DNA of 40,616 bases from Myxococcales bacterium (GTDB lineage Bacteria > Myxococcota_A > Polyangia > Fen-1088). Shown piece after piece: positions 8,399 to 37,442 of the stretch. The notes below the pieces were generated by a model. The model was not told the origin of the DNA. It made no database searches and saw nothing but the letters and a program-made list of their open reading frames with translations. Location of the stretch: the NCBI GenBank assembly GCA_003158735.1, contig PMLB01000194.1, positions 47,054-87,669 on the forward strand, written 5' to 3'. Both the position numbers and the translations under genes were made by a program. Position 1 is the stretch's first letter. The number at the start of each line of letters is the position of its first letter.

Positions 8399-8681
8399 AT
8401 GCCTCTGACTGTACGTATCACGAAGTCGGGCGCTTGGACAAACGGACGTCTTGCCCGCGTTTCATAGTAGGCCAGCGTGCGCTGCATTCGCTCGTTGATC
8501 GCGCACGCGATCATCGCGATGACAAATTGGAGCGTCTCCGGGAGCATCGGGCATCACCATGCCGGTTCGCGCATGCCGTTTTCAGGCTGCGTATCTCCGC
8601 GAATTCGTGCCAGCATTTCGGCGACGACTTTCCGGACACCAAGGGTGGCCAGGGCTCGCGGAAGCCGGCAAACTACCGGTC

Positions 8682-9812
8682 ATGCGGTACTGCTCGTTCC
8701 CCAAGATCCCCGGCCTCCCCATCTCGGCGCTGGGGTTCGGATGCATGCGTCTGCCCACCGTCAGCGGTGATCCGGCGCGCATCGACGAAGAAGCGGCTGC
8801 GCGCCTCGTGCACCGGGCTATCGACGCGGGCGTGAACTACTTCGACACAGCGTGGCCCTATCATGGCCAGCAGAGCGAACCTTTCCTGGGACGCGCGGTT
8901 GCGGGACGGCGCCACCAGGTGCAGTTGGCAACCAAGCTGCCGGTGTGGGGGGTCGAAAAGGAGAGCGACTGGGAGCGTTTCATCGACCAGCAGCTGGTCC
9001 GGCTGGGAACCGACCGAATCGATTTCTACATGCTGCACGGCTTGGCGGCCGAGTCCTGGGACAAGGTCAAGAATTTGCGCGGCCTGGCTGCCCTGGAACG
9101 CGCCAAGGCTGACGGCCGCATCGGGCACATCGGCTTTTCGTTTCATGGCTCACCTGACGACTTCCGCGCCATCATCGACGCGTTCGACTGGGAATTCTGC
9201 CTCATCCAGCTCAACTACCTGGACCAGCAGTACCAGGCTGGCCTGCAAGGCCTGCGCTACGCCGAAAGCCGCAGGGTGGGCGTGGTGGTCATGGAGGCCC
9301 TGCGCGGCGGGGCCTTGGCCAGGGTGCCGCCCGCGGTGGAGAGCATCTGGGCGCGCTCGCCGCGGCCCTGGTCGCCGGCAGAATGGGCTTTGCGCTGGGT
9401 GTGGAATCTACCGGGCGTGGTGAGCGTCATCTCGGGGATGAACGCCGCCAGCCAACTCGAAGAGAACCTGCGCGTGGCGAGCCATCCCATAGCGCTCAAC
9501 TCCGACGACCGCGCGTTGGCCGACGAGGTGGCGCGCTTCTTCCACGCGCGCATGCCCGTGGCCTGCACCACCTGTGGCTACTGTCTGCCTTGCCCGGCCG
9601 GGGTTTTCATCCCCGAAGTGCTGTCCACCTACAACACGGCCTCGATGTTCGACAATCAGGCTGGACCACGCTTTACCTACGATGCCTTCCTGGTCAAAGC
9701 CGGCGCCGGCGCCGACCAATGCACCGAATGCGCCGATTGCGAGCCCAAGTGCCCACAGAACATCCCTATCATCGAGATGCTGGCCAAAGCCCACGCCCAC
9801 CTCACTGGGTAG
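8682..9812 (+). CDS. Aldo/keto reductase with C-terminal 4Fe-4S ferredoxin-like domain
   Basis: LGFGCMRLP, NYFDTAWPYHGQQSEPFLGRAV; C-terminal CTTCGYCLPCP and CTECADCEPKCPQNIPI cysteine motifs; ATG 8682. Confidence 0.88.
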   Translation: MRYCSFPKIPGLPISALGFGCMRLPTVSGDPARIDEEAAARLVHRAIDAGVNYFDTAWPYHGQQSEPFLGRAVAGRRHQVQLATKLPVWGVEKESDWERFIDQQLVRLGTDRIDFYMLHGLAAESWDKVKNLRGLAALERAKADGRIGHIGFSFHGSPDDFRAIIDAFDWEFCLIQLNYLDQQYQAGLQGLRYAESRRVGVVVMEALRGGALARVPPAVESIWARSPRPWSPAEWALRWVWNLPGVVSVISGMNAASQLEENLRVASHPIALNSDDRALADEVARFFHARMPVACTTCGYCLPCPAGVFIPEVLSTYNTASMFDNQAGPRFTYDAFLVKAGAGADQCTECADCEPKCPQNIPIIEMLAKAHAHLTG

Positions 9813-9864
9813 TGTGGGATGTTCGGAGAAAGTCTACCCGCCACGATGATTTGTTGAGGTCCCC

Positions 9865-10836
9865 ATGGAAAAGACGCGCAGCCTAGCCAATTTGATCCAG
9901 TCGGCCCGAGCCTTCCAAGAAAGTCGAGTGCTGCTCACGGCCCTGGAATTGGACGTGTTCTCGACGGTCGGGGAAGGCGGCGCCACGGCCGCAGATGTCG
10001 CCCAGCGCCTGGGCACTGAGTCGCGCGCCACCGAGATGCTGCTGAACGCACTCGTGGCGCTGGGCGCGCTTCTGAAGCGCGATACCGTCTTTCGCTGTAC
10101 CGCCGAGTCGAAGGCTCTGGGGCCTGCGCGGCCAGGCCTGTTGCACACGGTCCATTTGTGGAACACGTGGTCCACCCTCACCGAATGCGTGAAGGTGGGC
10201 AGGGCGGTCCAGTCGCGCGGCCCCGAGGGCTTCCCCGAAGAGCGCACGCGCGACTTCATTGCCGCCATGCACGCGCGGGCTCAGGACAGCGCCAAAGAAA
10301 CCGTGCGCGTCTCGGGCATCCACCATGCGAAGCGAATGCTCGACGTGGGCGGCGGATCGGGCGCCTTCTCCATCGCCTTTGCCCAGGCTTGTCCCGAACT
10401 GCGCGCGGAAATTCTGGATCTGGGACCGGTGGTTCTTCTGGGCGAGCGCTACATTCGCGAGGCGGGACTGCAGGACCGTGTCCGCGTCCGACCCGGGGAC
10501 ATGCGCACGGCGGAACTTGGCCAAGAATACGACCTGATATTGCTCTCCGCCGTCTGCCACATGTTCGGCGAGGACGAGAACCGCGCGCTCATCCAGCGCT
10601 GCGCCCGGGCTTTGGTACCAGGAGGTCATCTCGTGATCCGCGAATTCATCCTCGAGGAAAATCGCGCCGCGCCCCCGTTTGCAGCGCTTTTTGCCCTCAA
10701 CATGCTCGTGGGCACCGAACACGGAAACACCTATACCGAAGGCCAATACCGCAGCTGGATGGCAGAAGCCGGCCTGGGCAGCATCACTCGCCCCGACCCC
10801 GACGGCGATGTTTTGGTTGCAGCCCAATCAGGCTAG
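9865..10836 (+). CDS. SAM-dependent O-methyltransferase (Methyltransf_2-like)
   Basis: MLDVGGGSGAFSIAFAQ motif I; ALVPGGHLVIREFIL; N-terminal winged-helix dimerisation-like region. Confidence 0.85.
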   Translation: MEKTRSLANLIQSARAFQESRVLLTALELDVFSTVGEGGATAADVAQRLGTESRATEMLLNALVALGALLKRDTVFRCTAESKALGPARPGLLHTVHLWNTWSTLTECVKVGRAVQSRGPEGFPEERTRDFIAAMHARAQDSAKETVRVSGIHHAKRMLDVGGGSGAFSIAFAQACPELRAEILDLGPVVLLGERYIREAGLQDRVRVRPGDMRTAELGQEYDLILLSAVCHMFGEDENRALIQRCARALVPGGHLVIREFILEENRAAPPFAALFALNMLVGTEHGNTYTEGQYRSWMAEAGLGSITRPDPDGDVLVAAQSG

Positions 10837-21621: not shown

Positions 21622-23856
21622 ATGGCTGACTTCGGCGCCATTTGTGTCCTCATCGCTTTGGTGCTGGCGACCTACGCCGGCGCGGCATCGCTGCTGGGCG
21701 CCCGGCGCGGGAGTGCGCGTCTGCTCGAATCCGGGCGGGCCGCGGTGTATGCCTTGACCGCCGTGCTCGGGCTGGCCAGCGTGGCCATGGTGCAGGCCTT
21801 CGTGTCGGGCGATTACAGCATCAAGTACGTCCAGCACTACTCCGATGCGCAAGCCCCGCTGGCCTACAAGATCTCGGCGTACTGGGGCGGGCTGGACGGA
21901 TCCATGCTGTTCTGGGTGGCCCTGCTGGCCGTGTTCGCGACCCTCGCGGTCCACGCCAACCGGCACCGCCAGCGAGAAATCCTGCCCTACGCCATCGCGG
22001 TGATGGCCGCGGTCGCGGACTTCTTCCTCTACCTCATCATCTTCGAGAAGAACCCCTTCGACACCTTCCTGGTGGAGATTCCAGCCTCGGGCCAGGGGCT
22101 GAATCCGCTCTTGCAGAATCCGTACATGGTGACCCACCCGCCCGCGCTCTACGGCGGATTCGTGGGTCTGACCATCCCCTACGCCTTTGCCATGGCGGCG
22201 CTGATATCGGGCCAGCTAGACGACGCCTGGCTGGCATCGATTCGCCGCTGGGCTCTCGCCTCGTGGTTTCTGCTCACCCTCGGCCTGGTGCTCGGCATGA
22301 TCTGGGCCTACGAGGTGCTGGGCTGGGGCGGGTTCTGGGCATGGGATCCGGTGGAGAATGCCGGGCTGCTACCCTGGTTGACCGCGACGGCGATGCTGCA
22401 CTCCATGAAGGTGCAAGAGCGGCGGGGACTGCTGCGCCGCTGGACCTTCGTACTGGTCATCCTGACTTTCTTCCTCACCATCTTTGGCACCTTCATGACC
22501 CGTTCGGGCATCGTGCAATCGGTCCACGCCTTTGGCAAGGACACGCGGCTGGCGTGGATCTTCACCATCTTCATGGGCCTGGTGCTGCTGGTCAGTTTCG
22601 GGTTCTTCTTCGCGCGCCTGTCAGTCTTGCGGGCGTCACGGGCGCTGGATTCCTGGCTCTCGCGTGAAGCGGCGACGGTGGCAACCAACTGGCTGTTCGT
22701 GCTGGCGGCGTTGGTGCTGATGTTCGCCACCATGTTCCCCACCTTGACCGAAGCCATCGGCCGCGAGCGCATCAGCGTGGGTGCTCCCTTCTTCAACCGC
22801 TGGATGGTGCCCATCGGAATTGCGTTGCTGCTGCTCACCGGGCTCTGCTCGATCCTGGCATGGCGCCGGACCGCACCGCCGGAGCTGCGTCGGCGACTGA
22901 TCGCGCCAGTGGTCGCGGGAATCGTGGTCGCTGGCGTGTGCGTCGCCGGCGGTTTGGGCTCGTCCAAGGGTGCGCTGCTCTGCCTTGGCTTGTCGGGCTT
23001 CATCGCCGCAGCGGTGATCCAGGAGATCGCCCGGGGCGTGGTCGGCCGCAAACGCAGTACCGGCCAGGGCGCACTGGCAGCGCTCGGCGCGCTCATCTTC
23101 CGCGTCCGCCGCCCCTACGCCGGCTATCTGGTCCATCTCGGCATGGCCCTCATGTTCGTGGGATTCGCTGGCCAGGCCTTTCAGCGCGAGGAGGCGGTGG
23201 TCCTGTCAGTGGGCCAGACGCGCGCTTTTGGCAAGTACGGCATCCGATTTGACGGATTCTCCCAGACCGAAGACCTTCAGAAACAGATGGTCACCGCCGA
23301 GCTCACCGTTCTCATCGACGGCAAGCCCGCGGGCCAGCTTCTGCCCGCGCGCTGGGTGTACCACAAGCGGCCCGACGAGCCGGCCACCCAGGTCGCCATC
23401 TTGCGCGGCCTGGTCGAGGATCTCTACGTCACCATGGGCAAACACGACCTCGACCAGGGCACGGCTGCTCTCAAGCTGGTCAGCAACCCGCTGGTCGACT
23501 GGATGTGGCTAGGCTTTCTGCTCATGGCCGCAGCCACTACTCTCGTGCTCCTTCCCGGCGGCCGATGGGCGAGCGCCGTGCCGCACACGCGCCTTTCGTT
23601 CAGTGGCGTAACCATCACGCTTCTGGGTGCGGCCGCAGCTTTGGTCTTCGGCGTCGTGGTCGCGCGCCTGCCCTGGGGCGCGCCGCTGGCGATACTCAGT
23701 GTGGGCGGACTCATTCTTGGCCTGACCGCGCTGGCCTGGTACCGCGTGCTGGATCCGCTGCTGCGGCAGGAAACCACCACCAGCACAGAACGCCGCGCCT
23801 TCATCGAAGAAGAACTACAGGCGCGGCTTCAGTCCGCCGCGGAGACGACAGAATGA
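21622..23856 (+). CDS. ccmF: Cytochrome c-type biogenesis protein CcmF (heme lyase subunit)
   Basis: WGGLDGSMLFWVALLAVFATLAV, NPYMVTHPPALYGGFVGLTIPYAFAMAAL, LGWGGFWAWDPVENAGLLPWL (WWD-type motif). Confidence 0.93.
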   Translation: MADFGAICVLIALVLATYAGAASLLGARRGSARLLESGRAAVYALTAVLGLASVAMVQAFVSGDYSIKYVQHYSDAQAPLAYKISAYWGGLDGSMLFWVALLAVFATLAVHANRHRQREILPYAIAVMAAVADFFLYLIIFEKNPFDTFLVEIPASGQGLNPLLQNPYMVTHPPALYGGFVGLTIPYAFAMAALISGQLDDAWLASIRRWALASWFLLTLGLVLGMIWAYEVLGWGGFWAWDPVENAGLLPWLTATAMLHSMKVQERRGLLRRWTFVLVILTFFLTIFGTFMTRSGIVQSVHAFGKDTRLAWIFTIFMGLVLLVSFGFFFARLSVLRASRALDSWLSREAATVATNWLFVLAALVLMFATMFPTLTEAIGRERISVGAPFFNRWMVPIGIALLLLTGLCSILAWRRTAPPELRRRLIAPVVAGIVVAGVCVAGGLGSSKGALLCLGLSGFIAAAVIQEIARGVVGRKRSTGQGALAALGALIFRVRRPYAGYLVHLGMALMFVGFAGQAFQREEAVVLSVGQTRAFGKYGIRFDGFSQTEDLQKQMVTAELTVLIDGKPAGQLLPARWVYHKRPDEPATQVAILRGLVEDLYVTMGKHDLDQGTAALKLVSNPLVDWMWLGFLLMAAATTLVLLPGGRWASAVPHTRLSFSGVTITLLGAAAALVFGVVVARLPWGAPLAILSVGGLILGLTALAWYRVLDPLLRQETTTSTERRAFIEEELQARLQSAAETTE

Positions 23857-25142
23857 AGAAGTGGTCGCTGGCGGCTCTCCTGCTTCTTGCCGGGACCGCC
23901 CTTGCGCAACCGCCGGCGCAAGAGGGCGATGCTCAGGCCATGGCAGCGCGTCCTCTGATGGTGGGTGACTTGCCGGTGGGCACCGTGACCGTGCGGGTGG
24001 GTCGCGGCTCGCTGTCCAACGCGGCCGTCGGGGTCGATGTCGTGGCCTCAGTGACAGCTCCGGCTGGCAAGGCCACTGTGCGAACCGAGAAGACCAAGGC
24101 GGATGGTCGCGCAACCTTCGCCGATCTCCCTGTGGGCGCCGAGTTTCAAGCCCAAGCCCTGGTCGACGGCCAGCGGCTGCAAACCGCGTCGTTCGCCATC
24201 CCGGCCGAGGGAGGCGCGCGTCTTATGCTGCTCTCCCAACAGGACCAAGAGGCCGGCGAAGACCAAGCGGCACCCACGCCCGCGAATCCGCATGCAGGGG
24301 CGCACAGTCATGGCGGCAACCCGACCGGGAGTGCCGGCGACGCTGGCGAAGGCACCAGCGATCCGTCGGTCGTGCGTGTGTCCAGCTCGTCCAAGCTGCT
24401 GATTGATCTGCGTGAAGATGCCTTGGCCGTCATGGAAAACCTGGTGCTGGAGAACACATCCGATCGGAGCTTCCGCTCTGACCATGGAGGCATCGCCATT
24501 CCACTCCCAGCAGGGGCCCACGAGGTGGAAGCCATCGAAGGCGGCGCGCGAATGCAACTGGAGCAAGGTTCGACCCTGTTCTTGCGGGAAGCGATTCCAC
24601 CCGCAAGTTCGCACACGCCGCCGGTGCAGGCACGCTTCGGCTTCTTTGTTTCCACCGCCGGCGAAAGCAGCGTCATACTCCGCCAGCCCATGCCCCTGGG
24701 AATCGAAACCCCGGTGGTCATGGTGCCGGAAAGTGTTCACCTGACGCTGGCGGCGCCGGGCCTGCAAGCCATGGCTTCCCAGACCGACGATCGAGGGGCG
24801 CGAATCCAGGTCTTCCAACTCGCCAGCGTGCCTCGCAACGGCGTTCTCAGCATCACGGTGTCGGGCCTGCCCACGCGCGGTGCTCTGGGCAAGACCATCG
24901 CGGCAGTACTGGTGGCGGCTCTGGTGTTCGCGGTAGTCTTGGGCTGGCGCCGCCCCCGGGCCGACAAACGGCCAGAGAAATCCCGCGACCGACGTGATGG
25001 ACTCTTTGCTGAGCTGGTCGAAGTGGAGCGCGCGCGGCGGGCCGCTGGAGCCGGCGATGCGCCGCTCACCCAGCGACGGGCCGAGCTGGTGGCGGCGATC
25101 GAGGCGGCTGACAACGCAAGCCCTGCCGACAAGCCTGCGTGA
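23853..25142 (+). CDS. Secreted, C-terminally membrane-anchored protein of unknown function in the ccm operon
   Basis: Signal peptide MKKWSLAALLLLAGTALAQ; N-terminal region like carboxypeptidase-regulatory/transthyretin-like fold; C-terminal TM GKTIAAVLVAALVFAVVLGW; ATGA overlap with ccmF stop. Confidence 0.75.
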   Translation: MKKWSLAALLLLAGTALAQPPAQEGDAQAMAARPLMVGDLPVGTVTVRVGRGSLSNAAVGVDVVASVTAPAGKATVRTEKTKADGRATFADLPVGAEFQAQALVDGQRLQTASFAIPAEGGARLMLLSQQDQEAGEDQAAPTPANPHAGAHSHGGNPTGSAGDAGEGTSDPSVVRVSSSSKLLIDLREDALAVMENLVLENTSDRSFRSDHGGIAIPLPAGAHEVEAIEGGARMQLEQGSTLFLREAIPPASSHTPPVQARFGFFVSTAGESSVILRQPMPLGIETPVVMVPESVHLTLAAPGLQAMASQTDDRGARIQVFQLASVPRNGVLSITVSGLPTRGALGKTIAAVLVAALVFAVVLGWRRPRADKRPEKSRDRRDGLFAELVEVERARRAAGAGDAPLTQRRAELVAAIEAADNASPADKPA

Positions 25143-25146
25143 ACCC

Positions 25147-25863
25147 ATGAGCGAGCGTGCGTTGCGCCTGATGAATGTCGGCAAGACCTTCGGTCGGCAA
25201 CGGGCACTGGCTGACGTGTCGCTGGCGTTCCTCCCTGGTGAGGTGGCGGCGGTTCTGGGCCCCAACGGCGCCGGCAAGTCCACCCTGCTCAGCCTGCTGG
25301 CGACGCTGTCGCAACCGTCGCAGGGCCGCATCACGCTGGGCGATGAACAACTGTCGCGCCGCAGCCCCTTGCGCGCCAGCATCGGGTACGTGGGTCACGA
25401 GCCGGGCGTGTACGGAGATCTCTCGGCCCGGCACAACTTGCGTCTGTTTGCCTCGCTCTACGGAATCGCAAACGCCGAGCGCCGCATCGACGAGATGTTG
25501 GCCCGCGTGGGCCTGGATGGCGGCCGGCGCGAAGCCGCGGCACGAACCTTCTCGCGCGGGATGCTGCAGCGGCTGGCCCTGGCGCGCGCCCTGCTGCACG
25601 AGCCGGAAATCCTGCTCTTCGACGAGCCCGGCTCCGCTCTCGACCCTGCCGGCGCGGCCTGGCTGGCGAGCGAGTTGCGGCGTGAGCGCGAGGCTGGCCG
25701 GCTGGTGATGCTGGTGACCCATGATCTCGCAGCCGCCGCTTCCGTGGCCACGCATGTGGTGGTCCTGCGCCGTGGCCGCGTGGCACGCGACGAGACGTGC
25801 GCGGGTTTCTCTGCCGACGAGGTTCGCGCGATCTATGAGGAGGCAACCGGTGGCAAGACCTAG
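25147..25863 (+). CDS. ccmA: ABC transporter ATP-binding protein, heme exporter CcmA
   Basis: Walker A GPNGAGKST, signature-like FSRGMLQRLALARALLHEPEILLFDEPGSALD; position before ccmB. Confidence 0.88.
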   Translation: MSERALRLMNVGKTFGRQRALADVSLAFLPGEVAAVLGPNGAGKSTLLSLLATLSQPSQGRITLGDEQLSRRSPLRASIGYVGHEPGVYGDLSARHNLRLFASLYGIANAERRIDEMLARVGLDGGRREAAARTFSRGMLQRLALARALLHEPEILLFDEPGSALDPAGAAWLASELRREREAGRLVMLVTHDLAAAASVATHVVVLRRGRVARDETCAGFSADEVRAIYEEATGGKT

Positions 25864-26551
25864 TTGGGTCTCTCAGGCCGCGCGCATCGCGTGGAAGGAT
25901 CTACACATCGAGGGACGCAGCCGCGAGGTGGTCTACACCATGGGCTTCATGGCCGCGCTGGTGGTGTTGGTGTTCTCTTTTGCCTTCATTTCAGGGCAAG
26001 AAGTCACGGTTGGGCCCGACGCGATCGCCGGCATCCTGTGGGTGGCGGTGTTGTTCTCGGGCACCGTGGCCTTGTCGCGCACCTTCGACCGCGAACGCGA
26101 GAACGAGGCCATCCGTTCGCTTCTGCTATCCCCGGTCCCGCGCTCGGCCATCTATGCGGGCAAGCTGGCGGCCACCGCGGCCATCATGTTGTTGGTGGAA
26201 TTGCTGCTGCTGCCTTTGCTCGCGGCGCTATTTTCGGCTGCTATCTGGCCGCACGCGCTTTGGCTGGGCCTGCTGCTTCTGTTGGGAACCGTCGGCTTCG
26301 CCTCGGTGGGCGTGATCTTTTCGGCCGCGCTCCTGCGCTCCCGCAGCCGCGACGCCCTTCTGGGTGCCCTGCTTTTCCCCATCGTGATCCCGGTGCTGCT
26401 GGCAGCCAGCCGCGCGACAGCCACCCTGCTCGACCCCACGGTCCCGGATCTCGATCCGGCGTTCTTCTGGACGCGTTTTCTGGCTGCCCTGGACGTAGTT
26501 TTCGTCGTGGTCGGGCTGTGGTCCTTCGAACCCGTCGTCATGGGAGAGTGA
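25850..26551 (+). CDS. ccmB: Heme exporter permease CcmB
   Basis: AWKDLHIEGRSREVVYTMGFMAALVVLVFSFAF, RTFDRERENEAIRSLLLSPVPRSAIYAGKL; GTG start at 25850 in frame. Confidence 0.9.
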   Translation: MARPSWVSQAARIAWKDLHIEGRSREVVYTMGFMAALVVLVFSFAFISGQEVTVGPDAIAGILWVAVLFSGTVALSRTFDRERENEAIRSLLLSPVPRSAIYAGKLAATAAIMLLVELLLLPLLAALFSAAIWPHALWLGLLLLLGTVGFASVGVIFSAALLRSRSRDALLGALLFPIVIPVLLAASRATATLLDPTVPDLDPAFFWTRFLAALDVVFVVVGLWSFEPVVMGE

Positions 26552-26554
26552 GCT

Positions 26555-27259
26555 ATGCTTTCGAGTATGCCCTCGGCCCGAAAGTCCAACACCGCCTTCG
26601 TCGTCGGCCTATTGCTGGTTCTCCACGGGTTTTTTGTCGTGACCCTGCTGGTCGCGAACGCGCCGCAGGAGAAAACCATGGGCATCGTGCAGAAGATCTT
26701 CTACTTTCACGTGCCTTGCGCCTGGCTGCTCATGCTGTCCACCTTCGTGTGCGCGGCTGGCAGTCTGGCCTACCTGTTTCGCGGATCAGAACGCGGTGAT
26801 CGTCTAGCCCTGTGCAGTGCCGAGTTGGGTGTGCTGTTTGGTCTGTGTGTGCTGGTGACCGGGCCGCTGTGGGCGCGAGCCGCGTGGGGCGTGTTCTGGA
26901 CCTGGGACGTGCGCCTCACCTCTTCGCTGCTGCTCTGGCTGATGCTGGTCGCCTATGGCCTGGCACGCCGCTATGGCGGCGCTGGTGGCCGTCGGCTGGC
27001 GGCGGCCATGGCTCTCTTCGCGGCGACCGACGTGCCCCTGGTCTACCTCAGCGTCAACGTGTGGCGCACCCTGCACCCGACGACCAGGGTGGTTTCCTCG
27101 TTGGCCCCGGGGATGCGGTTGCCCTTCTTCCTGTCGCTGGCCATTTTCAGCGGCCTGTGGGGCGTGCTGTTGACCTTGCGTATGCGCGTCGAGCGCGCCC
27201 AGTCGCGCCTGCTGGAGTTGACCATCGCCATCGAGGATGCGGAGGAGAAGTCACCATGA
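26555..27259 (+). CDS. ccmC: Heme exporter/cytochrome c assembly protein CcmC
   Basis: MGIVQKIFYFHVPCAWLLML, GPLWARAAWGVFWTWDVRLTSSLLLWLMLVAYGLAR (WxWD motif). Confidence 0.92.
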   Translation: MLSSMPSARKSNTAFVVGLLLVLHGFFVVTLLVANAPQEKTMGIVQKIFYFHVPCAWLLMLSTFVCAAGSLAYLFRGSERGDRLALCSAELGVLFGLCVLVTGPLWARAAWGVFWTWDVRLTSSLLLWLMLVAYGLARRYGGAGGRRLAAAMALFAATDVPLVYLSVNVWRTLHPTTRVVSSLAPGMRLPFFLSLAIFSGLWGVLLTLRMRVERAQSRLLELTIAIEDAEEKSP

Positions 27260-28063: not shown

Positions 28064-28339
28064 GTGAAATCGATCAACGTCCAGCAGGCCAAGACCCATC
28101 TCTCGCGCCTGCTTGAGGAAGCCTTGGCCGGTGAAGAAATCGTGATCGCCAAAGCCGGACGTCCCTACGTCAAGCTGGTGCCCTGCCCGCCCGACCGAAC
28201 AGCACGTTCGCTGGGTGGATGGGAAGGCAAGGTCCGCATGGCTGACGACTTCGATGAAACACCCGCGAACGTGCTCAAGCTCTTCGAGGGTGGCCCCGTC
28301 CCCGCGGCCAAACCGCGCCCGCGCCGCGGTGCCAAGTGA
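28064..28339 (+). CDS. Type II antitoxin, Phd/YefM family (GTG start)
   Basis: VKSINVQQAKTHLSRLLEEALAGEEIVIAKAGRPYVKLVP is a classic Phd/YefM N-terminus. Confidence 0.9.
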   Translation: MKSINVQQAKTHLSRLLEEALAGEEIVIAKAGRPYVKLVPCPPDRTARSLGGWEGKVRMADDFDETPANVLKLFEGGPVPAAKPRPRRGAK

Positions 28340-28713
28340 AGCTGCTCCTCGACACGCACGCCCTGCTGTGGGCACTCGCACGCCCTGGCGAGTTGGCACC
28401 TGAGGCGCGCCGCCGCCTACAGGATCCGAGCAACACGGTCTTCGTCAGCGTGGCCTCGGCATGGGAGATGGAGATCAAGCGCGCTCTGGGCAAGCTCGAT
28501 GCCCCCGATGACTTGTCGGAACAGATGCAACGCCAACGTTTCGCTGAGCTTCCCGTGCGACTCCGCCACATTCAGGCCCTGCAGGGCCTTCCCGCCCTGC
28601 ACCGCGATCCCTTCGATCGACTGTTGGTCGCCCAGGCTCTGGCCGATGAGCTGGTCGTGTTGACACGAGACGCGCGGATTCGCGCCTATCCGATTCGTTC
28701 GCTCGCGTGCTGA
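28336..28713 (+). CDS. Type II toxin, PIN domain (VapC-like) ribonuclease
   Basis: KLLLDTHALLWAL, SVASAWEMEIKRALGKL, HRDPFDRLLVAQALADELVVLTRD; overlaps antitoxin stop by 4 nt. Confidence 0.92.
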   Translation: MKLLLDTHALLWALARPGELAPEARRRLQDPSNTVFVSVASAWEMEIKRALGKLDAPDDLSEQMQRQRFAELPVRLRHIQALQGLPALHRDPFDRLLVAQALADELVVLTRDARIRAYPIRSLAC

Positions 28714-28784: not shown

Positions 28785-31343
28785 ATGCGTTGCACGAGAA
28801 CTCTGAGACTGGTTGACGTTCTGTCCCTCGGCTGTCTTCTGGCTTGCATGCCCACGGGTCGCGCGGCTGGCGAGTCAGGCGATGGCTCTGGCAAACCCAT
28901 GGCCAAGAGCCCGGCCGCTGTGCTCAAGGGACTGCACAACACGGGCGGTGTCGGGTTTGCCTACAGCCAAGGCGATCAGGCGGACCAGGCCGACGATCAC
29001 ACGCTGGCGCCGTACTTCTACGTGGCGGGAGGCAATCCAGAGACCGAGCGCCTGCCACTCAAGGAAACGCGCGCCGAGGTGGACATCGCCGGGGTCATCG
29101 CAGCGGTGAAGGTGCACCAGGTTTTCGAGAACAGCGCCGGCAAGCCCATCGAGGCGGTGTACGTGTTCCCGGCCTCGACCCGGGCCGCTGTGCACGCCAT
29201 GCGCATGAAGATTGGCGCGCGCACCATCGAGGCCCATATCGCGCGCAAGCAAGAGGCACGCGCCGAGTACGAGGCGGCCAAGCGCGCCGGCCAGCGAGCC
29301 TCGCTGCTGGAACAAGAGCGGCCCAATGTCTTCACCACCAGCGTCGCCAACATCATGCCGGGCGACCGCATCGAGGTGGAACTGGACTACAGCGAGATGA
29401 TCCTGCCCGACAACGCCACCTACGAATTTGTCTATCCGACGGTGGTGGGTCCGCGCTACGTCGGCGGGGCCAACCCCAAGACCGATCAGTGGATGGCCAA
29501 TCCCCATCTGTCCGAGGGCGAGAAGGAGCCCTACACCTTTGACATCAAGGTCCACATGCAGACCGGCATCGCGCTCAAAGAGGTTTCGTCGCCCTCGCAC
29601 AAGATCGCAGTCAGCTATGCCGGGCCCACCACCGCTGACATCCGGCTGGACCCAACCGGCGGCGGCAACAAGGACTTCGTGCTGCGCTATCGTCTGGCCG
29701 GCGACAAGATCGAAACCGGCCTGCTGCTGTATCAAGAACCGTCCGCGGATCGAGGAAATGAAAAGTTCTTCGCCCTGCTGATGGAGCCACCGCGCAGGCC
29801 CAGCGACGCCGACATCCCGCCACGCGAGTACATCTTCCTGCTCGACGTGTCCGGCTCCATGCACGGGTTCCCGCTCGACACGGCCAAGGCCCTCATGCGC
29901 GAGCTGCTGTTGCGACTGCGGCCCACCGACCACTTCAACCTGGCGCTTTTCTCGGGCGCAAACTACGTGTGGAGCCCGTCGGGATCCAAGTCGGCCAATG
30001 AAAAGAACATCCGCGAGGGGCTGGACGTGATCCTGCACCAGAGCGGCGGTGGCGGCACCGAATTGATGGGCGGTTTGCAGGCGGCCTACGCGATTCCGTC
30101 CTTGGGTCGGGGAACCTCGCGCACCGTGGTGGTGATCACCGACGGCTACGTGGGCGTGGAAGCGCAGGCCTTTCGCTTCATCCGCGAACGGCTGGACCAC
30201 GCCAACCTGTTTGCCTTCGGCATCGGCTCCTCGGTCAACCACGGGCTCATCGAGGGCATGGCGCGCGCCGGGTTGGGCGAGCCGTTCGTGGTGGCCTGTC
30301 CGGAAAAGGCCGCGGCTGAGGCGGAAAAACTCCGCCACATGATCGAGCGCCCAGTACTCACCGACATCGAGGTGCGCATGCAGGGCTTTGACGCCTACGA
30401 CGTGGCGCCCGAGAAGGTGCCTGACCTACTGGCCGAGCGGCCGCTGCTGCTCTTCGGCAAGTACAAAGGCGACCGGCCGGGTCAGATCACAATCACTGGC
30501 CGCAACGGCCGAGGGAAATTCGGCAACAGTATCGATCTCCGTCCGGCCGACGCGCGCCGGGGAAACGCGGCCCTGCGTGCACTGTGGGCGCGCAAGTGGG
30601 TCGAGATTCTGGAAGACGAGCTGCACATGGGCGGAGGCCAGGAGGTCGAAGCCGCGATCACCGGTCTCGGCCTGAGCTATAGCCTGCTGACTCCCTTCAC
30701 TTCGTTCGTGGCGATTGACTCGCAAGTCGCCAATCGCACCGGCCAGGCAGAAACCGTACGCCAACCGCTGCCCATGCCTGAAGGCGTATCGAATCTCGCG
30801 ATTGGATCAAAGGGAGGCGGGCAAGGGCTGGGAGGCATCGCCTACTCGCACGCCACGGGCGCACCGGCAGCCTTCCCACAGCGTGCAATGAAGCGCGCAG
30901 AGACGCAGCGGGCGTATGCCCCGGCGCCGGCTTCTGTCGAGCCCAGTCCGCCGATCTCGGAACTTACTTCCACTGCGCTAGCGGACGGCAAGAGCCGAGC
31001 CGGGCACGATCTCGCCAAGAGCAGCGACAAGGTCGCCCAGGACGAAAAGACGCCGGTGTGTTCGGTGAAGGTGATACCCGGCAAGAGTCACAGCCTGGGC
31101 GACAGCGCGGCTCTGCTGGCGGTCATTCGCCGCGTGGCTGAGCAACAAGGCTGCGCAAAAGCTGGCCGCACGCTCCGTCTGCGCATCACGGTGGACGCAA
31201 CGGGAAAAGTCACCAAGGTCGAGCGTCTAGCCGGTGACCAAGTCCTCGCCGCTGCCATCACGGGCAAGCTGACCGACGCATCCTCGACGACCACGGCCAA
31301 GTCAGCGCGCGAGGGAACGCTGGAGGTGACAATCAAGTTCTGA
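28785..31343 (+). CDS. VIT domain plus von Willebrand factor type A domain protein
   Basis: VKVHQVFENSAGKPIEAVYVFP..., ARAEYEAAKRAGQRASLLEQERPNVFTTSVANIMPGD (VIT); YIFLLDVSGSMHGFPL MIDAS (vWA); signal peptide. Confidence 0.92.
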   Translation: MRCTRTLRLVDVLSLGCLLACMPTGRAAGESGDGSGKPMAKSPAAVLKGLHNTGGVGFAYSQGDQADQADDHTLAPYFYVAGGNPETERLPLKETRAEVDIAGVIAAVKVHQVFENSAGKPIEAVYVFPASTRAAVHAMRMKIGARTIEAHIARKQEARAEYEAAKRAGQRASLLEQERPNVFTTSVANIMPGDRIEVELDYSEMILPDNATYEFVYPTVVGPRYVGGANPKTDQWMANPHLSEGEKEPYTFDIKVHMQTGIALKEVSSPSHKIAVSYAGPTTADIRLDPTGGGNKDFVLRYRLAGDKIETGLLLYQEPSADRGNEKFFALLMEPPRRPSDADIPPREYIFLLDVSGSMHGFPLDTAKALMRELLLRLRPTDHFNLALFSGANYVWSPSGSKSANEKNIREGLDVILHQSGGGGTELMGGLQAAYAIPSLGRGTSRTVVVITDGYVGVEAQAFRFIRERLDHANLFAFGIGSSVNHGLIEGMARAGLGEPFVVACPEKAAAEAEKLRHMIERPVLTDIEVRMQGFDAYDVAPEKVPDLLAERPLLLFGKYKGDRPGQITITGRNGRGKFGNSIDLRPADARRGNAALRALWARKWVEILEDELHMGGGQEVEAAITGLGLSYSLLTPFTSFVAIDSQVANRTGQAETVRQPLPMPEGVSNLAIGSKGGGQGLGGIAYSHATGAPAAFPQRAMKRAETQRAYAPAPASVEPSPPISELTSTALADGKSRAGHDLAKSSDKVAQDEKTPVCSVKVIPGKSHSLGDSAALLAVIRRVAEQQGCAKAGRTLRLRITVDATGKVTKVERLAGDQVLAAAITGKLTDASSTTTAKSAREGTLEVTIKF

Positions 31344-31886: not shown

Positions 31887-33299
31887 TTGCTGTTTTGGCC
31901 GTTCACCCTTTTCGCGACCCTCGCCCTACCGGCATCCGGTGATGCGACGGTGCAGCTACCGGTCGAGCCCGCGCCCGCGTGGTCGGGCGAGCTGTCGCTG
32001 GTGCAGGAGTATCGCGTGCGAGAGGCCCCGTCTGGGTCAGCCGACACGTCCGGGGTGCTGGGGGTGCCAGTCGCCGTCAACCCGAGAACCGACCACGATC
32101 TGCGGCTGACTCTCGATGGGCAAGGCAGGGGCTTTCGCGATCGGCTGCAAGGCCAGATCTCGGCTGCGCTGTGGTGGGACATGGACGGCCATGTGCCGAC
32201 CGGCCAGCCCGGCCAGACCGACCTGTTCGGCGAGTTTTCTGACTACCGCCAGCCCCTCTTCGTGGTCTACGCCCTTTCGGCCGAATGGCGGCACAGCTTT
32301 CCGCTGGAATACCTACGCCTCGGCCGGCAAGTAAGCGAGCATGGCTTGCCCATCACATTCGACGGAGGATCGCTCGGCCTGCGCCTGTGGGAACGCCAGC
32401 TCTCGCTGTTTGGCTACGCGGGACGGACGGTGCACTTCTTCGAGACCCAGCCGGGACTGTTCGAGAACTGGGTGACGTGTGCAGGCGCGGTCTATCGGCC
32501 GAGCGAACACATTCGGCTCGAAGCCGACTCGCGCTTCGAGCACGACACCGTCATTTCCCGGGACGTACCGCAAAGGGTCTGGGTATATGCCCATTCCTAT
32601 GGTCTGACCCTGTCGACGCGCTTCCAAGAAAGCTGGGGCAAACTCTTCGTGCGCGGCCTCGACCGCAGCGCATCCCACGCCGGGGGCGCCTTGCGCCTCG
32701 CCTTTCCGTCGCTCGCCGCAGGGATCGACGCTCAGGCGAGCGCGCAGCTGCGAACCCTGGGCGAGATCAGCGAGAACGAAAACCCGTTCTACTCACTGCT
32801 CGGCCCCAGCCTGCCCAACCTGCGCGCCCGAGTCGAAGTCTGGAAGGAAACCGCGCTCGGCCAGCTCACCACGCTCGGCCTGCGCGCGGGGTGGCGCGTG
32901 CGCCAGCTTCTGCGTGGGACCGAGGGCCCATTCAACCGCAATTTCGGCGGCATCTACTTTCAGAGCGAACTCAACGACCTGGCGGTCAAGGGTCTCTTCG
33001 CCACGGGAATCCTGGAGTGGAACTACGTGCCCTGGTCAGTGAGCAGGGACTCGTTTCTGGCGCTCGGGGGATCGGCCGGCTACTCCGTCCGCAGAATCAA
33101 GGTCGAAGCCGGCACCTACTATCAGCGCTGGAAGGTCAACTACTACCGCGATGTAGAAGAGCTGCAGAACGCCCGCACCGTGTACGCAAGCGCCGGGGTT
33201 CGCGCCCTGCCCTGGCTGGAGCTGCGCGCACGCTACACCTTGGAGATCGTCGACCGGTACATTCAATCGGCGTTCTTCTCGATTCGGGAGGATCTGTGA
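31887..33299 (+). CDS. Putative outer-membrane beta-barrel/porin-like protein (TTG start)
   Basis: Signal-peptide-like N-terminus, alternating amphipathic strands throughout (e.g. VEAGTYYQRWKVNYYRDVEELQNARTVYASAGVRALPWLELRARYTLEI); first gene of a multiheme cytochrome operon. Confidence 0.7.
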   Translation: MLFWPFTLFATLALPASGDATVQLPVEPAPAWSGELSLVQEYRVREAPSGSADTSGVLGVPVAVNPRTDHDLRLTLDGQGRGFRDRLQGQISAALWWDMDGHVPTGQPGQTDLFGEFSDYRQPLFVVYALSAEWRHSFPLEYLRLGRQVSEHGLPITFDGGSLGLRLWERQLSLFGYAGRTVHFFETQPGLFENWVTCAGAVYRPSEHIRLEADSRFEHDTVISRDVPQRVWVYAHSYGLTLSTRFQESWGKLFVRGLDRSASHAGGALRLAFPSLAAGIDAQASAQLRTLGEISENENPFYSLLGPSLPNLRARVEVWKETALGQLTTLGLRAGWRVRQLLRGTEGPFNRNFGGIYFQSELNDLAVKGLFATGILEWNYVPWSVSRDSFLALGGSAGYSVRRIKVEAGTYYQRWKVNYYRDVEELQNARTVYASAGVRALPWLELRARYTLEIVDRYIQSAFFSIREDL

Positions 33300-34018
33300 G
33301 GAGCCGCCTCCGCCCACTCCTGCCACTGGCCGGAATCCTGGTATTTGGCGGACTGGGCTGCCAGCGCAGCCCACTTGGCGACGGTCTCCCGGGCAAGCTG
33401 GACTGTTCCTCGTGCCATGGCAACAAGGACAATGCGGCTCCCCCGCTGGCGCTCAACGGATCGACCAGCACGAGCGACATCGGCGTGGGCGCCCACCAGT
33501 CCCACATGACAGGGGGAACAATTTCCGCCCCAGTCGCCTGTACAGAATGCCACCCGGTGCCCACCTTGATGAACGGTGACGACCATCCGGATTCACTGGC
33601 GCGTGGGACGGTGACGCAATTCCTCGGCCCGCTGGCGCAGACTGGAGGGGCGACTCCGGCCTGGAACCGAAGCAAGGAAACCTGCACCAACACCTACTGT
33701 CATGGCGCCACCCTGCCCGGCACGTTCAAACCAGCGACTCCGCTTTGGACTAAAGTCGACGGCTCGCAAATCAAGTGCAATTCGTGCCACGGCGTCTTGC
33801 CGGCGGATCTGGGCGGTTCGCACCCGTTGCATACCGCATACACCTGCGACACCTGCCACACCCGGGTGACTTCTGCCGACTTGACCATCACCCACCGAGA
33901 CCTTCACGTCGACGGTGAAGTCGACGTCAGCATGGCGGTAGGCAGCTGGGATCCGGTGACCAGGACCTGCGCGGACACCGACACCGCCAACGGCTGTCAT
34001 GGGAGCAATCCATGGTGA
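33296..34018 (+). CDS. Multiheme c-type cytochrome lipoprotein with CX2CH and longer-spaced heme motifs
   Basis: GTG start at 33296 (GTGA overlap); lipobox FGGLGC; CSSCH, CTECH, CTNTYCH, CNSCH, CDTCH, CADTDTANGCH. Confidence 0.85.
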   Translation: MRSRLRPLLPLAGILVFGGLGCQRSPLGDGLPGKLDCSSCHGNKDNAAPPLALNGSTSTSDIGVGAHQSHMTGGTISAPVACTECHPVPTLMNGDDHPDSLARGTVTQFLGPLAQTGGATPAWNRSKETCTNTYCHGATLPGTFKPATPLWTKVDGSQIKCNSCHGVLPADLGGSHPLHTAYTCDTCHTRVTSADLTITHRDLHVDGEVDVSMAVGSWDPVTRTCADTDTANGCHGSNPW

Positions 34019-35361
34019 CCACGCAGAAACCTCCCCCGCTGCCGCCCATGAATGGCAGTGGCCGCCCGTCCCTTCCCTTCGGGCCGGATGCGGGTCGAGC
34101 AGGCAGTGCTCACCAACCTACGGTCGCGGCCGACCGCGGGGATTCGGGTTTCGACCGCCAACTGGCCAGCTTGTTCGGCGAAAGCGTGTTCGGGCCCTGG
34201 CTCGATCCGGGACAGTATCTGGGCGCGACCCGCACGACCCGACGGCATGGTGCTCCCTTCCGGCGACTCGCCCTGCTGACTCTTGTCCTCTGCGTGGGAG
34301 CTGCAGCTGGCTGGATTGTGCGCGCCGGCCTTTCGCGCCGCACGGTCGAAGACCGTGAGCATGTCGCGCGCAATCTGGCGAGCTTTCTCAAAGAGGGTGA
34401 ACTGGATCGGGCCGCGCAATTCCTCACGCTTCTGCGTGGCGCGAATGCCCCTCTCGACCCGCACGATGCTCACCTCGACCTCATGATCCGCGCCGAGGCG
34501 GCTCTGTACCGGTACCAGGATGCTGACCCCGAACGCCTCGCCCGCATCAGGCCCTATCTGTCATCGGTGGCGACCGCGCCCGCATCCGGGCAGCGAATCC
34601 TGGCCAGCCTGGCCGTGGCGTCACGGCAAGAGCGGGCCGCGCGCTTGGCTCTACTGGAGTCGATGCGCCCGGCTTTCGATCAAGATCCCGAGTTCCACTA
34701 TCTGCTGGCCACCGCCCTCGAATACCAGGGCGACGTGAAGGCGGCTCGGCAGGCTTGGGATCGAGGCTTCGAGCTCGGGCCCCTGTGGCTCGCCCACCGC
34801 TACGAACAAGCCTGGTTCGAGGCTCGCCAAGGCAAAGCGGAAGCGGTCAGCAAGCTGGTCGGCCGACTCGTGCTCGTCGCGCCCGAGTCGGCGTGGACCG
34901 GTTTGGCCTCGGAACAGTTCGCCGGCGCACGGGTTGCCAAGCCTGATATCGCCCCGGCGGCTGCGTCGGCGCACCCAACCCCGGCGGTCGCGCTCTATCA
35001 TCAGAATCTCGCTCTAGCCCAAGCCCAGGTGCGCGCCGGCGATCCCATCGCGGGCCGGCGCAGTCTCGGCCAGGCGATTGCGGCGGTGAATGGCCAAGCG
35101 CCCTTCGTGCTTGATGCGTTCGACTGGCTGGTCGAGGCCAAGGCCATGGGGCTGGCGCGCGACCTGACGGCGTTCGAGACCTGGCCGCGACATTCCGAGC
35201 TGGCCGACGCGCGAGTCGCCCGACTGGCCGAGCCCGAGCATCGCCCGGCCGACAATCCGCCGGCCGTATCCGAGTCACAGGCCACGCCTAAGCAGCAGGT
35301 CAAGAAGCCCAGCCGGGGCAAGAAGGCCAAGACAAAAGCAAAGGCGCGACGTAGGAAATGA
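34012..35361 (+). CDS. Membrane protein with N-terminal cytoplasmic segment, one TM and helical-repeat-like extracytoplasmic domain
   Basis: TM LALLTLVLCVGAAAGWIVRAGL; Ala-rich repeats resembling TPR; Lys/Arg-rich C-terminus; ATGGTGA overlap with preceding gene. Confidence 0.7.
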   Translation: MVTTQKPPPLPPMNGSGRPSLPFGPDAGRAGSAHQPTVAADRGDSGFDRQLASLFGESVFGPWLDPGQYLGATRTTRRHGAPFRRLALLTLVLCVGAAAGWIVRAGLSRRTVEDREHVARNLASFLKEGELDRAAQFLTLLRGANAPLDPHDAHLDLMIRAEAALYRYQDADPERLARIRPYLSSVATAPASGQRILASLAVASRQERAARLALLESMRPAFDQDPEFHYLLATALEYQGDVKAARQAWDRGFELGPLWLAHRYEQAWFEARQGKAEAVSKLVGRLVLVAPESAWTGLASEQFAGARVAKPDIAPAAASAHPTPAVALYHQNLALAQAQVRAGDPIAGRRSLGQAIAAVNGQAPFVLDAFDWLVEAKAMGLARDLTAFETWPRHSELADARVARLAEPEHRPADNPPAVSESQATPKQQVKKPSRGKKAKTKAKARRRK

Positions 35362-37442
35362 GACCCCAGTCCACCAGAAGAACGCGCTTCATTGGCCTTG
35401 CCTGCTGGCTGCTGGCGAGCCTGATTGCCATTCCCCTGGTGGTTGCGCAGCAGTCTTTCTTCCGGGTGGCGCCCGGGCCGCTCAACGAGAGTCACGCTGC
35501 CAATGACAACTCGGAGGGCTGTCCCAAGTGCCACGAGGCCAATCACGGCGTCACAGACGCCAAGTGCCTCGACTGCCATAAGCCCCTCAGAGATGAGCTG
35601 GCCAAACGGCGCGGTCTGCACGCAACCTTCACCGGGACGTGCCTACACTGCCATCCTCAGCACAAGGGGCGAGAGTTCAACATCATCGACTGGAAACACG
35701 CAGGCGGACACGAGACCTTCAACCACACTCAGACGGGGTTCTCGCTCCTCAACGACCACGCCAAGCTCGCCTGCGCCTCCTGCCACACCCGGCGCATGAA
35801 GTCGGGTCGTATCACCTATCTCGGCCTTTCCAAGGATTGCCGCAGCTGCCACAAGAGCGTTCACGGGTTCAGCGAGGCCCAGCTGGCACAGAAGTGCGAC
35901 ACCTGCCATCCCGTGGGTCACGTGCTGAAGGGCATGCTGCTTTCCGCCTGGCTTGAGCCGCACGCCCGGTATTCGGGAACTGCCTTTGACGGTAAGCACC
36001 TGGAACAGCCTTGCACCAAGTGCCACCCCAATGCCCAGATGGCGGGCCGCACCCCGCCGCGCAAGTGTGCCGACTGCCACCGTCCCTTCCATCCAGTGAC
36101 CGCCGACACCGCCAAGTGTACATCCTGCCACTTCACCGGGCGTCCCTGGAAAGAGGCCAAAGTCGACCACCGTCGCTTCGGCTTTGCCCTTCTGGGCAAG
36201 CACCAGACGCTGGACTGTAAGAAATGCCACGGCAAGGGCACGCAGCTGACGTACAGCCAAGGCGGCTGCGTGACCTGTCACCAGCACCGGGGCGTGCACA
36301 AGGGGCAGTTCGCAGACAAGCCATGCTCTGGTTGCCACGTGGAGGGCGGCACGCGCACGCGGGCCTTCACCCACAACAAGGATACGCGCTTCCCGCTCAT
36401 CGGCTTCCACGCCGAGCCCAAGGTGCGCAGCAAGTGCGCCAACTGTCACCAGAACGAGATCTACCGCACCAACAAGCTTGCCTGTGTCGACTGTCACAAG
36501 GACAAGGACAAACACAACGGACAGCTCGGCAACGACTGTTCCAAGTGTCACGCGCCCACCCAGCATTTCAAAGACCTGCGCCTGGTCTGGAAGCACAGCA
36601 AGCGATTCCCGCTGGAAGGCCTGCACAAGACCGCCAAGTGCGAAGGGTGCCACGTCAACGGTCGCTACAAACTGGGCGACGTCACCTGCGTGAACTGCCA
36701 CGAGAAGACGGATCCGCATCGCGGCCAGCTGGGCCGGGACTGTGGCAAGTGTCACCGGCCGGAGAAGGGAGCGCCCAAGTTCAACCACGACCAGATGACC
36801 CATTTCGTGCGCGACGGCGCCCATCGCGATCTGGCCTGCTCCTTCTGCCATCGGCCGCGGCCCGATGCACCGCCGGCTGTGGGCTGGACCAAGAAAGAAA
36901 CGGCTCCGCCGCTGGATCGCCGGTTTCCGCTCATGGGGAAGACCTGCGCGGACTGCCACGCGGATCCGCACCGGGGTTCATCCGGGCTCAAGTGCGACGA
37001 TTGTCACACCACGGCCGATTTCCGCGGCCTCCTCGCAGGCGGCCGAATCAAACCGCGCGACCACGATCAAATCTGGCTGCGCTCGCACGCCAATCTGCCC
37101 TGGGACGAGGACGAGGCCGGAGCCGAAGGACGTGCGTGCTCCCGCTGCCACGCCTCGCCGGTTTGCACCAGCTGCCATCGCTCCCATCCGCCCAAGAGCC
37201 ATACAGCGCTGTGGCGGTTGCGCGGGCACGGACCAGCATCGGCCTTCGATCCCGAGCCTTGCCGCGTGTGTCACCAGCCTGGAATGTGCATTCAGTGCCA
37301 CCGAACCACGGCGCCGCTCAACCACCGTGGCGCCTGGGGCAAGGTGCACGGGTTTGCGGCGGGCAGTTTTGCCAACGACAACTGCTACGTCTGTCACCGG
37401 CGTGCCGATTGCCTGGTGTGTCACCAAGCTCCTCCCCGATAG
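35358..37442 (+). CDS. Multiheme c-type cytochrome with 27 CXXCH motifs (694 aa)
   Basis: Signal peptide/TM FIGLACWLLASLIAIPLVVAQ; 27 CXXCH motifs counted by eye in the translation; ATGA overlap with preceding gene. Confidence 0.95.
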   Translation: MRPQSTRRTRFIGLACWLLASLIAIPLVVAQQSFFRVAPGPLNESHAANDNSEGCPKCHEANHGVTDAKCLDCHKPLRDELAKRRGLHATFTGTCLHCHPQHKGREFNIIDWKHAGGHETFNHTQTGFSLLNDHAKLACASCHTRRMKSGRITYLGLSKDCRSCHKSVHGFSEAQLAQKCDTCHPVGHVLKGMLLSAWLEPHARYSGTAFDGKHLEQPCTKCHPNAQMAGRTPPRKCADCHRPFHPVTADTAKCTSCHFTGRPWKEAKVDHRRFGFALLGKHQTLDCKKCHGKGTQLTYSQGGCVTCHQHRGVHKGQFADKPCSGCHVEGGTRTRAFTHNKDTRFPLIGFHAEPKVRSKCANCHQNEIYRTNKLACVDCHKDKDKHNGQLGNDCSKCHAPTQHFKDLRLVWKHSKRFPLEGLHKTAKCEGCHVNGRYKLGDVTCVNCHEKTDPHRGQLGRDCGKCHRPEKGAPKFNHDQMTHFVRDGAHRDLACSFCHRPRPDAPPAVGWTKKETAPPLDRRFPLMGKTCADCHADPHRGSSGLKCDDCHTTADFRGLLAGGRIKPRDHDQIWLRSHANLPWDEDEAGAEGRACSRCHASPVCTSCHRSHPPKSHTALWRLRGHGPASAFDPEPCRVCHQPGMCIQCHRTTAPLNHRGAWGKVHGFAAGSFANDNCYVCHRRADCLVCHQAPPR

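Follow-up and report, generated by a model that had tools for sequence, protein, structure and literature searches.

A 27-heme cytochrome in a Myxococcota genus joins a PCC3-type periplasmic wire to the hexaheme tail of barrel-associated cytochromes, suggesting an extracellular-electron-transfer conduit

Results

The operon and its genomic surroundings

The analyzed window spans 40,616 nucleotides of contig PMLB01000194.1 (positions 47,054 to 87,669; assembly GCA_003158735.1). It belongs to a metagenome-assembled genome (MAG) of the Myxococcota class Polyangia, whose named relatives are 'fen' Myxococcales MAGs of Stordalen origin. On the forward strand, which also holds P0005 and the ccm genes described below, the window carries an operon of overlapping or closely spaced genes encoding, in this order, a barrel (P0008), a CxxxxCH lipoprotein, a transmembrane (TM) protein (P0002), a 27-heme cytochrome (P0001) and an inner-membrane protein (P0004). 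P0008 (31887..33299, 470 aa) is probably an outer-membrane beta-barrel and sheath of the conduit proposed below, an assignment based on its strand pattern, C-terminal residues and genomic partners. It is 34-37% identical to the barrels encoded in Myxococcota loci that combine a barrel, an 11-heme cytochrome and a CxxxxCH cytochrome (hereafter trios), and the C-termini of its homologs are outer-membrane-like. Amphipathic-strand peaks numbered 22, versus 13.4 in shuffled sequences, in a crude test that also missed a TonB receptor control. The family profile matched no barrel among PDB sequences, and an AlphaFold2 model computed on a 6-row genus alignment was discarded (pLDDT 25.8).

The next gene (33296..34018) begins at a GTG codon that follows GGAGG and overlaps the stop codon of P0008. 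It encodes a probable lipoprotein cytochrome of the CxxxxCH family, with 4 CXXCH motifs, 1 CX4CH motif and a non-canonical lipobox (TIGR01904, 58.9 bits; cut-off 27). P0002 (34012..35361), a putative accessory of the conduit locus, has one TM segment, matches TPR only weakly and ends in a basic tail rich in Lys/Arg; its homologs were seen only in loci of the same genus (L026-L030). Translational coupling links its gene to the neighbors on both sides, the lipoprotein cytochrome and 27-heme genes, and its stop overlaps the start codon of P0001. Downstream of P0004 lies P0005 (39513..40532), an SGG-rich putative lipoprotein with 2 CXXCH motifs. It may be part of the system as a further surface cytochrome, since a homolog (39%) is encoded close to the genes for an inner-membrane protein and a wire that belong to another family (L038). 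Cytochrome c maturation genes are found upstream of the operon: ccmF (21622..23856; CcmF_C, 177 bits) and ccmA, ccmB and ccmC (24994..27259; ABC_tran, CcmA-like, CcmB and Cytochrom_C_asm matches). In the interval between the ccm genes and the operon, a short Phd-like frame precedes a gene for a PIN-domain protein (28064-28713), possibly forming a toxin-antitoxin pair. A VIT/VWA-domain protein also encoded upstream of the operon (28785-31343) matches TIGR03788 below cut-off and keeps this upstream position in three loci of the genus.

P0001 contains 27 heme-binding motifs in two types of repeat

The 27-heme cytochrome P0001 (35358..37442, 694 aa) starts with an ATG at 35358 and its stop codon ends at 37442. 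Counting in the translation yields 27 CXXCH motifs, one per 25.7 residues, exactly the number and coordinates given in an initial annotation of this DNA. All but one of its 55 cysteines belong to these motifs; the exception, Cys16, is in the signal sequence. Residues 1-30 (35358..35447), with a single hydrophobic segment at residues 11-29, constitute a signal peptide or N-terminal membrane anchor. Shuffles of the same residue composition contained on average 0.38 CXXCH motifs and at most 4 (2000 shuffles), and 27/27 motifs are kept in each ortholog covering them. The open frame is taken as a real gene because substitutions relative to the closest ortholog fall mainly on third codon positions (19/9/68 by position) and because the antisense ORF opposite to it (442 aa) is shortened in orthologs; the latter was rejected as a gene and attributed to a GC artefact.

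Outside the motifs, P0001 has 36 histidines, 33 of them invariant among relatives. Since 29 accompany hemes 1-21 and 7 accompany hemes 22-27, possible distal ligands are sufficient in number for the 27 hemes. Two repeat modules were recovered. Triheme repeats of about 69 aa (cytochrome c7-type; heme spacing 33-37/16-17/18-19) hold approximately four copies of an FxLxGxH unit, all in the N-terminal two thirds. In the C-terminal fifth the repeat is of another type, 41 aa long with two hemes spaced 9+32. The peptides quoted earlier as FxHxxT/FPLxGxH-like units are present. Cytochrome domain models also scored above their cut-offs, both for Cytochrome_C7 (PF14522; 67.2 bits, curated cut-off 24.8) and for Cytochrom_c3_2 (52 bits, cut-off 25). 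The suggestion of an internal repeat with enough histidines for bis-His ligation is backed by homology, repeats and conservation. An AlphaFold2 model of P0001 on the 6-row genus alignment was discarded (pLDDT 26.6), and the sole match of a PDB sequence search with P0001 alone, a zinc-ribbon, was spurious.

P0001 combines two cytochrome families

The initial annotation overlooked both the surrounding operon and the composite nature of the cytochrome. At the sequence level, P0001 is a chimera of two families, with a junction at approximately residues 557-567. Residues 29-557 (35442..37028, hemes 1-21) correspond to a PCC3-type periplasmic wire. An HMM of length 523 built from 18 gammaproteobacterial 21/24-heme wires matched this region over model positions 24-518 with 300.6 bits. 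Pairwise identity with gammaproteobacterial wires is 28-33% (E down to about 1e-78), and heme spacings follow the same order, with a few loops longer or shorter. The gammaproteobacterial loci were designated PCC3 by anatomy and motifs, not by name, and their sampling was centered on a Ferrimonas locus (L031), a weak relative that served only this purpose and whose genome gave no match to the inner-membrane protein. Members of the P0004 family were present in 61 of 369 Gammaproteobacteria genomes, and in 18/18 loci opened the inner-membrane protein adjoins a 21- or 24-heme cytochrome. Nearly all of these loci encode a second cytochrome with 9-69 hemes and most have a large non-heme frame in the porin position, which is the anatomy of PCC3; several run off their contigs. 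One such cytochrome (L098, 660-5771) bears 69 CXXCH motifs on a chain of about 1704 aa and shares its cluster with a 21-heme wire. In other Polyangia, the inner-membrane protein adjoins 20-29-heme cytochromes that match P0001 over residues ~14-565 and have no tail. The idea that Polyangia wires of 760-830 aa share the P0001 C-terminus was rejected: their spacing ends 18-32-16-(24 to 35), and they scored at most 47 bits with the HMM of 11-heme conduit cytochromes.

The remaining part of P0001, residues 567-694 (37056..37439; hemes 22-27, spacing 9-32-9-32-9), corresponds to the C-terminal hexaheme of the trio cytochromes. The 11-heme conduit HMM, built without any member of the genus, scored 140 bits on this C-terminal hexaheme and 23 bits on residues 1-480, while no other multiheme cytochrome or wire exceeded 47 bits and shuffles with the heme motifs preserved did not exceed 33 bits. 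In about 10 Myxococcota loci (L044-L046, L070-L076; in some, one gene of the trio is truncated where the contig ends), the 11-heme gene lies between the gene for a P0008-like barrel and that for the CxxxxCH cytochrome. Among the genes seen beside them, none encodes a PCC3 inner-membrane protein. The window has the same three constituents, a barrel, a cytochrome ending in 9-32-9-32-9 and a CxxxxCH probable lipoprotein cytochrome. Of 379 sampled Myxococcota genomes, 9 encode the tail and 10 the barrel. All 9 tail genomes are among the barrel genomes, and the tenth barrel genome has only a barrel fragment. In two trio loci (L046, 8029-9870; L073, 3217-4557), internal duplication has enlarged the 11-heme cytochrome to 25 and 18 hemes, repeating a 35-24-16-40-9 spacing.

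The inner-membrane partner

P0004 (37479..39371) is an inner-membrane cytochrome b with a four-cluster ferredoxin domain, recognized by its motifs and Fer4 families. Its N-terminus weakly resembles a cyclic-nucleotide-binding domain (PF00027; 15.6 bits, E=0.016), a resemblance only, under the cut-off of 27.5. Sixteen cysteines arranged in four groups of four (residues 191-305) fall within a domain for four [4Fe-4S] clusters (~residues 187-310; 38037..38408). In the PDB, profile matches of this domain were electron-transfer subunits with Fe-S clusters, the strongest being 9mqx_E (E=1.9e-13). Alignment of homologs delimits a di-heme cytochrome b membrane domain at residues 357-630 (38547..39368). 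The motifs WLTVH-X13-H, SGAIG and WNWVH-X13-H occur in the window and its orthologs, and in nine diverse homologs the W/H/H, GxxG and W/H/H columns are all invariant. The signature published for PCC3/PCC4 inner-membrane proteins comprises 5 TM helices, of which TM3 and TM5 each carry WX3HX13H and TM4 carries SGXXG (PMC5566968). P0004 conforms to it, although its TM2 falls short of the hydropathy threshold and was assigned visually. In the P0004 tree, the genus proteins group with those proteins from other Polyangia that carry the Fe-S fusion (support 97/95), and 18/18 gammaproteobacterial proteins are separate from them. The membrane domain is also homologous to the stand-alone inner-membrane protein adjoining a 23-heme cytochrome in Emticicia.

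Discussion

A proposed conduit between inner membrane and cell surface

Wire homology, tail homology, the separate occurrence of the two modules, the co-occurrence of tail and barrel, the P0004 signature, the tight operon and the unbroken fusion in four MAGs together lead us to consider it likely that the locus encodes an extracellular-electron-transfer conduit in which a periplasmic wire is covalently continuous with an outer-membrane plug. A point against this reading is that the extracellular cytochrome of a typical PCC3 has more hemes than the 5 counted here. The inner module would be the PCC3-type pair of P0004 and the 21-heme wire, in which P0004, as a diheme cytochrome b, would act on quinones or be linked to ferredoxin, expose its four Fe-S clusters to the cytoplasm and trade electrons with quinol or cytoplasmic carriers. 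The outer module would comprise the P0008 barrel, the hexaheme plug and, at the cell surface, the CxxxxCH lipoprotein cytochrome as the contact with the outside. Hemes 1-21 would span the periplasm and hemes 22-27 would cross the outer membrane within the barrel, so that electrons could pass, in one direction or the other, between the cytoplasm or quinone pool, P0004, hemes 1 to 27 and the surface cytochrome. MtrA extends 80 A with 10 hemes (PMC7198977); by scaling from it, and not by measurement, the 21 hemes would cover ~180 A and the 6-heme tail ~45 A, close to the dimensions of the periplasm and the outer membrane. We infer a tail lodged inside the barrel, a continuous heme chain, a conduit function and a polarity with the N-terminus inside and the C-terminus in the barrel, as implied by the joining of wire and barrel-associated tail. 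The stricter proposal, that a single covalent 27-heme chain runs from the inner membrane through the barrel and that a plug grafted onto the wire of another family settles how PCC3 wires are oriented and attached, we regard as an even bet.

PCC3 wires with 21, 24 and 27 hemes are on record (PMC10734462), so the heme number of P0001 is in itself ordinary for its class; PCC3 wires are already known and the fusion is the new part. The tail-bearing cytochrome and the barrel are both encoded in 6 of the 7 genomes of the genus, all of them MAGs, and the system is absent from the seventh (G054). The fusion was seen in these six genomes, all of one genus, and nowhere else among the genomes examined. 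One of the six (L030/G100, 8001-10008) carries the 27-heme gene as two pieces in different frames, either a pseudogene or a MAG error, and this speaks for the fusion being an annotation or assembly accident of two adjacent genes. The break, however, falls near residue 337-358, away from the junction, which is crossed by one open frame in four separately assembled MAGs (the window and L026-L028, 86-97% identical to the window), and the tail retains its conserved residues; an accident is accordingly the least credible of the explanations considered. Only marginally more credible is that P0001 is exported and polymerizes into an extracellular cytochrome nanowire, as its high heme density and linear repeats would permit. 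The initial annotation spoke of a nanowire-like or long-range electron-transfer cytochrome; homology, repeats and conservation back long-range transfer, but the extracellular filament lacks support because a sequence search of the PDB related P0001 to none of the OmcS, OmcE and OmcZ filaments and because its partners are an inner-membrane cytochrome b, to which the wire homologs are tied, and a barrel, to which the tail is tied.

A more substantial alternative, though still an unlikely one, is that P0001 serves only as a periplasmic wire or electron store, its hexaheme docking at the periplasmic mouth of the barrel and the lipoprotein cytochrome bridging the gap. In its favor, MtrB and the PCC3 porins are larger than the 470-aa barrel, no solved structure places the tail family within a barrel, and a profile that includes the tail retrieves chiefly linear cytochromes that are soluble, 3ov0 among them. 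Against docking alone, the tail accompanies the barrel in all sampled barrel genomes, bar the one with a barrel fragment, and is found nowhere else in the sample; moreover, the tail family provides the sole periplasmic cytochrome adjoining the barrel in the trios, as MtrA does for MtrB.

PCC3 has been described as functionally unverified (PMC12442390), and no prior test of an outer-membrane link or end orientation of PCC3 wires was found in the literature. Under the conduit reading, the natural fusion of a wire to a barrel-linked tail would constitute evolutionary evidence for an N-inside/C-outside polarity of these wires. It predicts a covalent inner-to-outer path without shuttles, suggests that conduits are assembled from interchangeable inner and outer modules, and would extend such systems to Myxococcota of northern peat.

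Comparison with known systems

The window shares with PCC3 (He et al. 2017, PMC5566968; Gallionellaceae pangenome, PMC10734462) the inner-membrane protein signature and the clustering of that protein with a large wire, P0001 falling within the class of homologous 21-27-heme wires. In PCC3 a porin and an extracellular multiheme cytochrome complete the cluster, for which the window offers the P0008 barrel and the CxxxxCH cytochrome as candidates. It departs from PCC3 in the ferredoxin and cNMP-like parts fused N-terminally to the inner-membrane protein, in the C-terminal hexaheme that P0001 takes from another family, and in its barrel, P0008 being small and akin to the trio barrels, whereas PCC3 porins are usually very large. 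The extracellular cytochromes of PCC3 bear 10-85 hemes, a range that excludes the adjacent surface candidate with its 5 motifs. The hosts listed by He et al. are Alpha-, Beta- and Gammaproteobacteria (PMC5566968), whereas the host here belongs to the Myxococcota. On plasmid pEMTOL02 of Emticicia oligotrophica (NC_018749), a cultured Bacteroidota strain, a PCC3-like cluster (L060, 6664-15360) encodes, besides a candidate porin, cytochromes with 23 and 40 hemes. It has in common with the window the inner-membrane protein family and large multiheme cytochromes, but its Fe-S domain resides on a separate NAD(P)-binding protein and it has no tail fusion.

The Myxococcota trios, for which no published name was found, encode homologs of P0008, of P0001 residues 567-694 and of the 33296-34018 protein, their cytochrome being a separate gene product with mostly 11 hemes. 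P0001 gave no match at E<=0.001 to the MtrA/DmsE model TIGR03508 (cut-off 192.2 bits), and related 11- and 25-heme proteins scored 24.6-27.1 bits, below that cut-off. The same three-part logic, a barrel-held cytochrome with a surface lipoprotein cytochrome, is nonetheless present in MtrCAB (PMC7198977) and OmbB-OmaB-OmcB (PMC6148476). MtrA protrudes ~20 A on the periplasmic side and depends on shuttles, whereas P0001 would reach the inner membrane in one chain.
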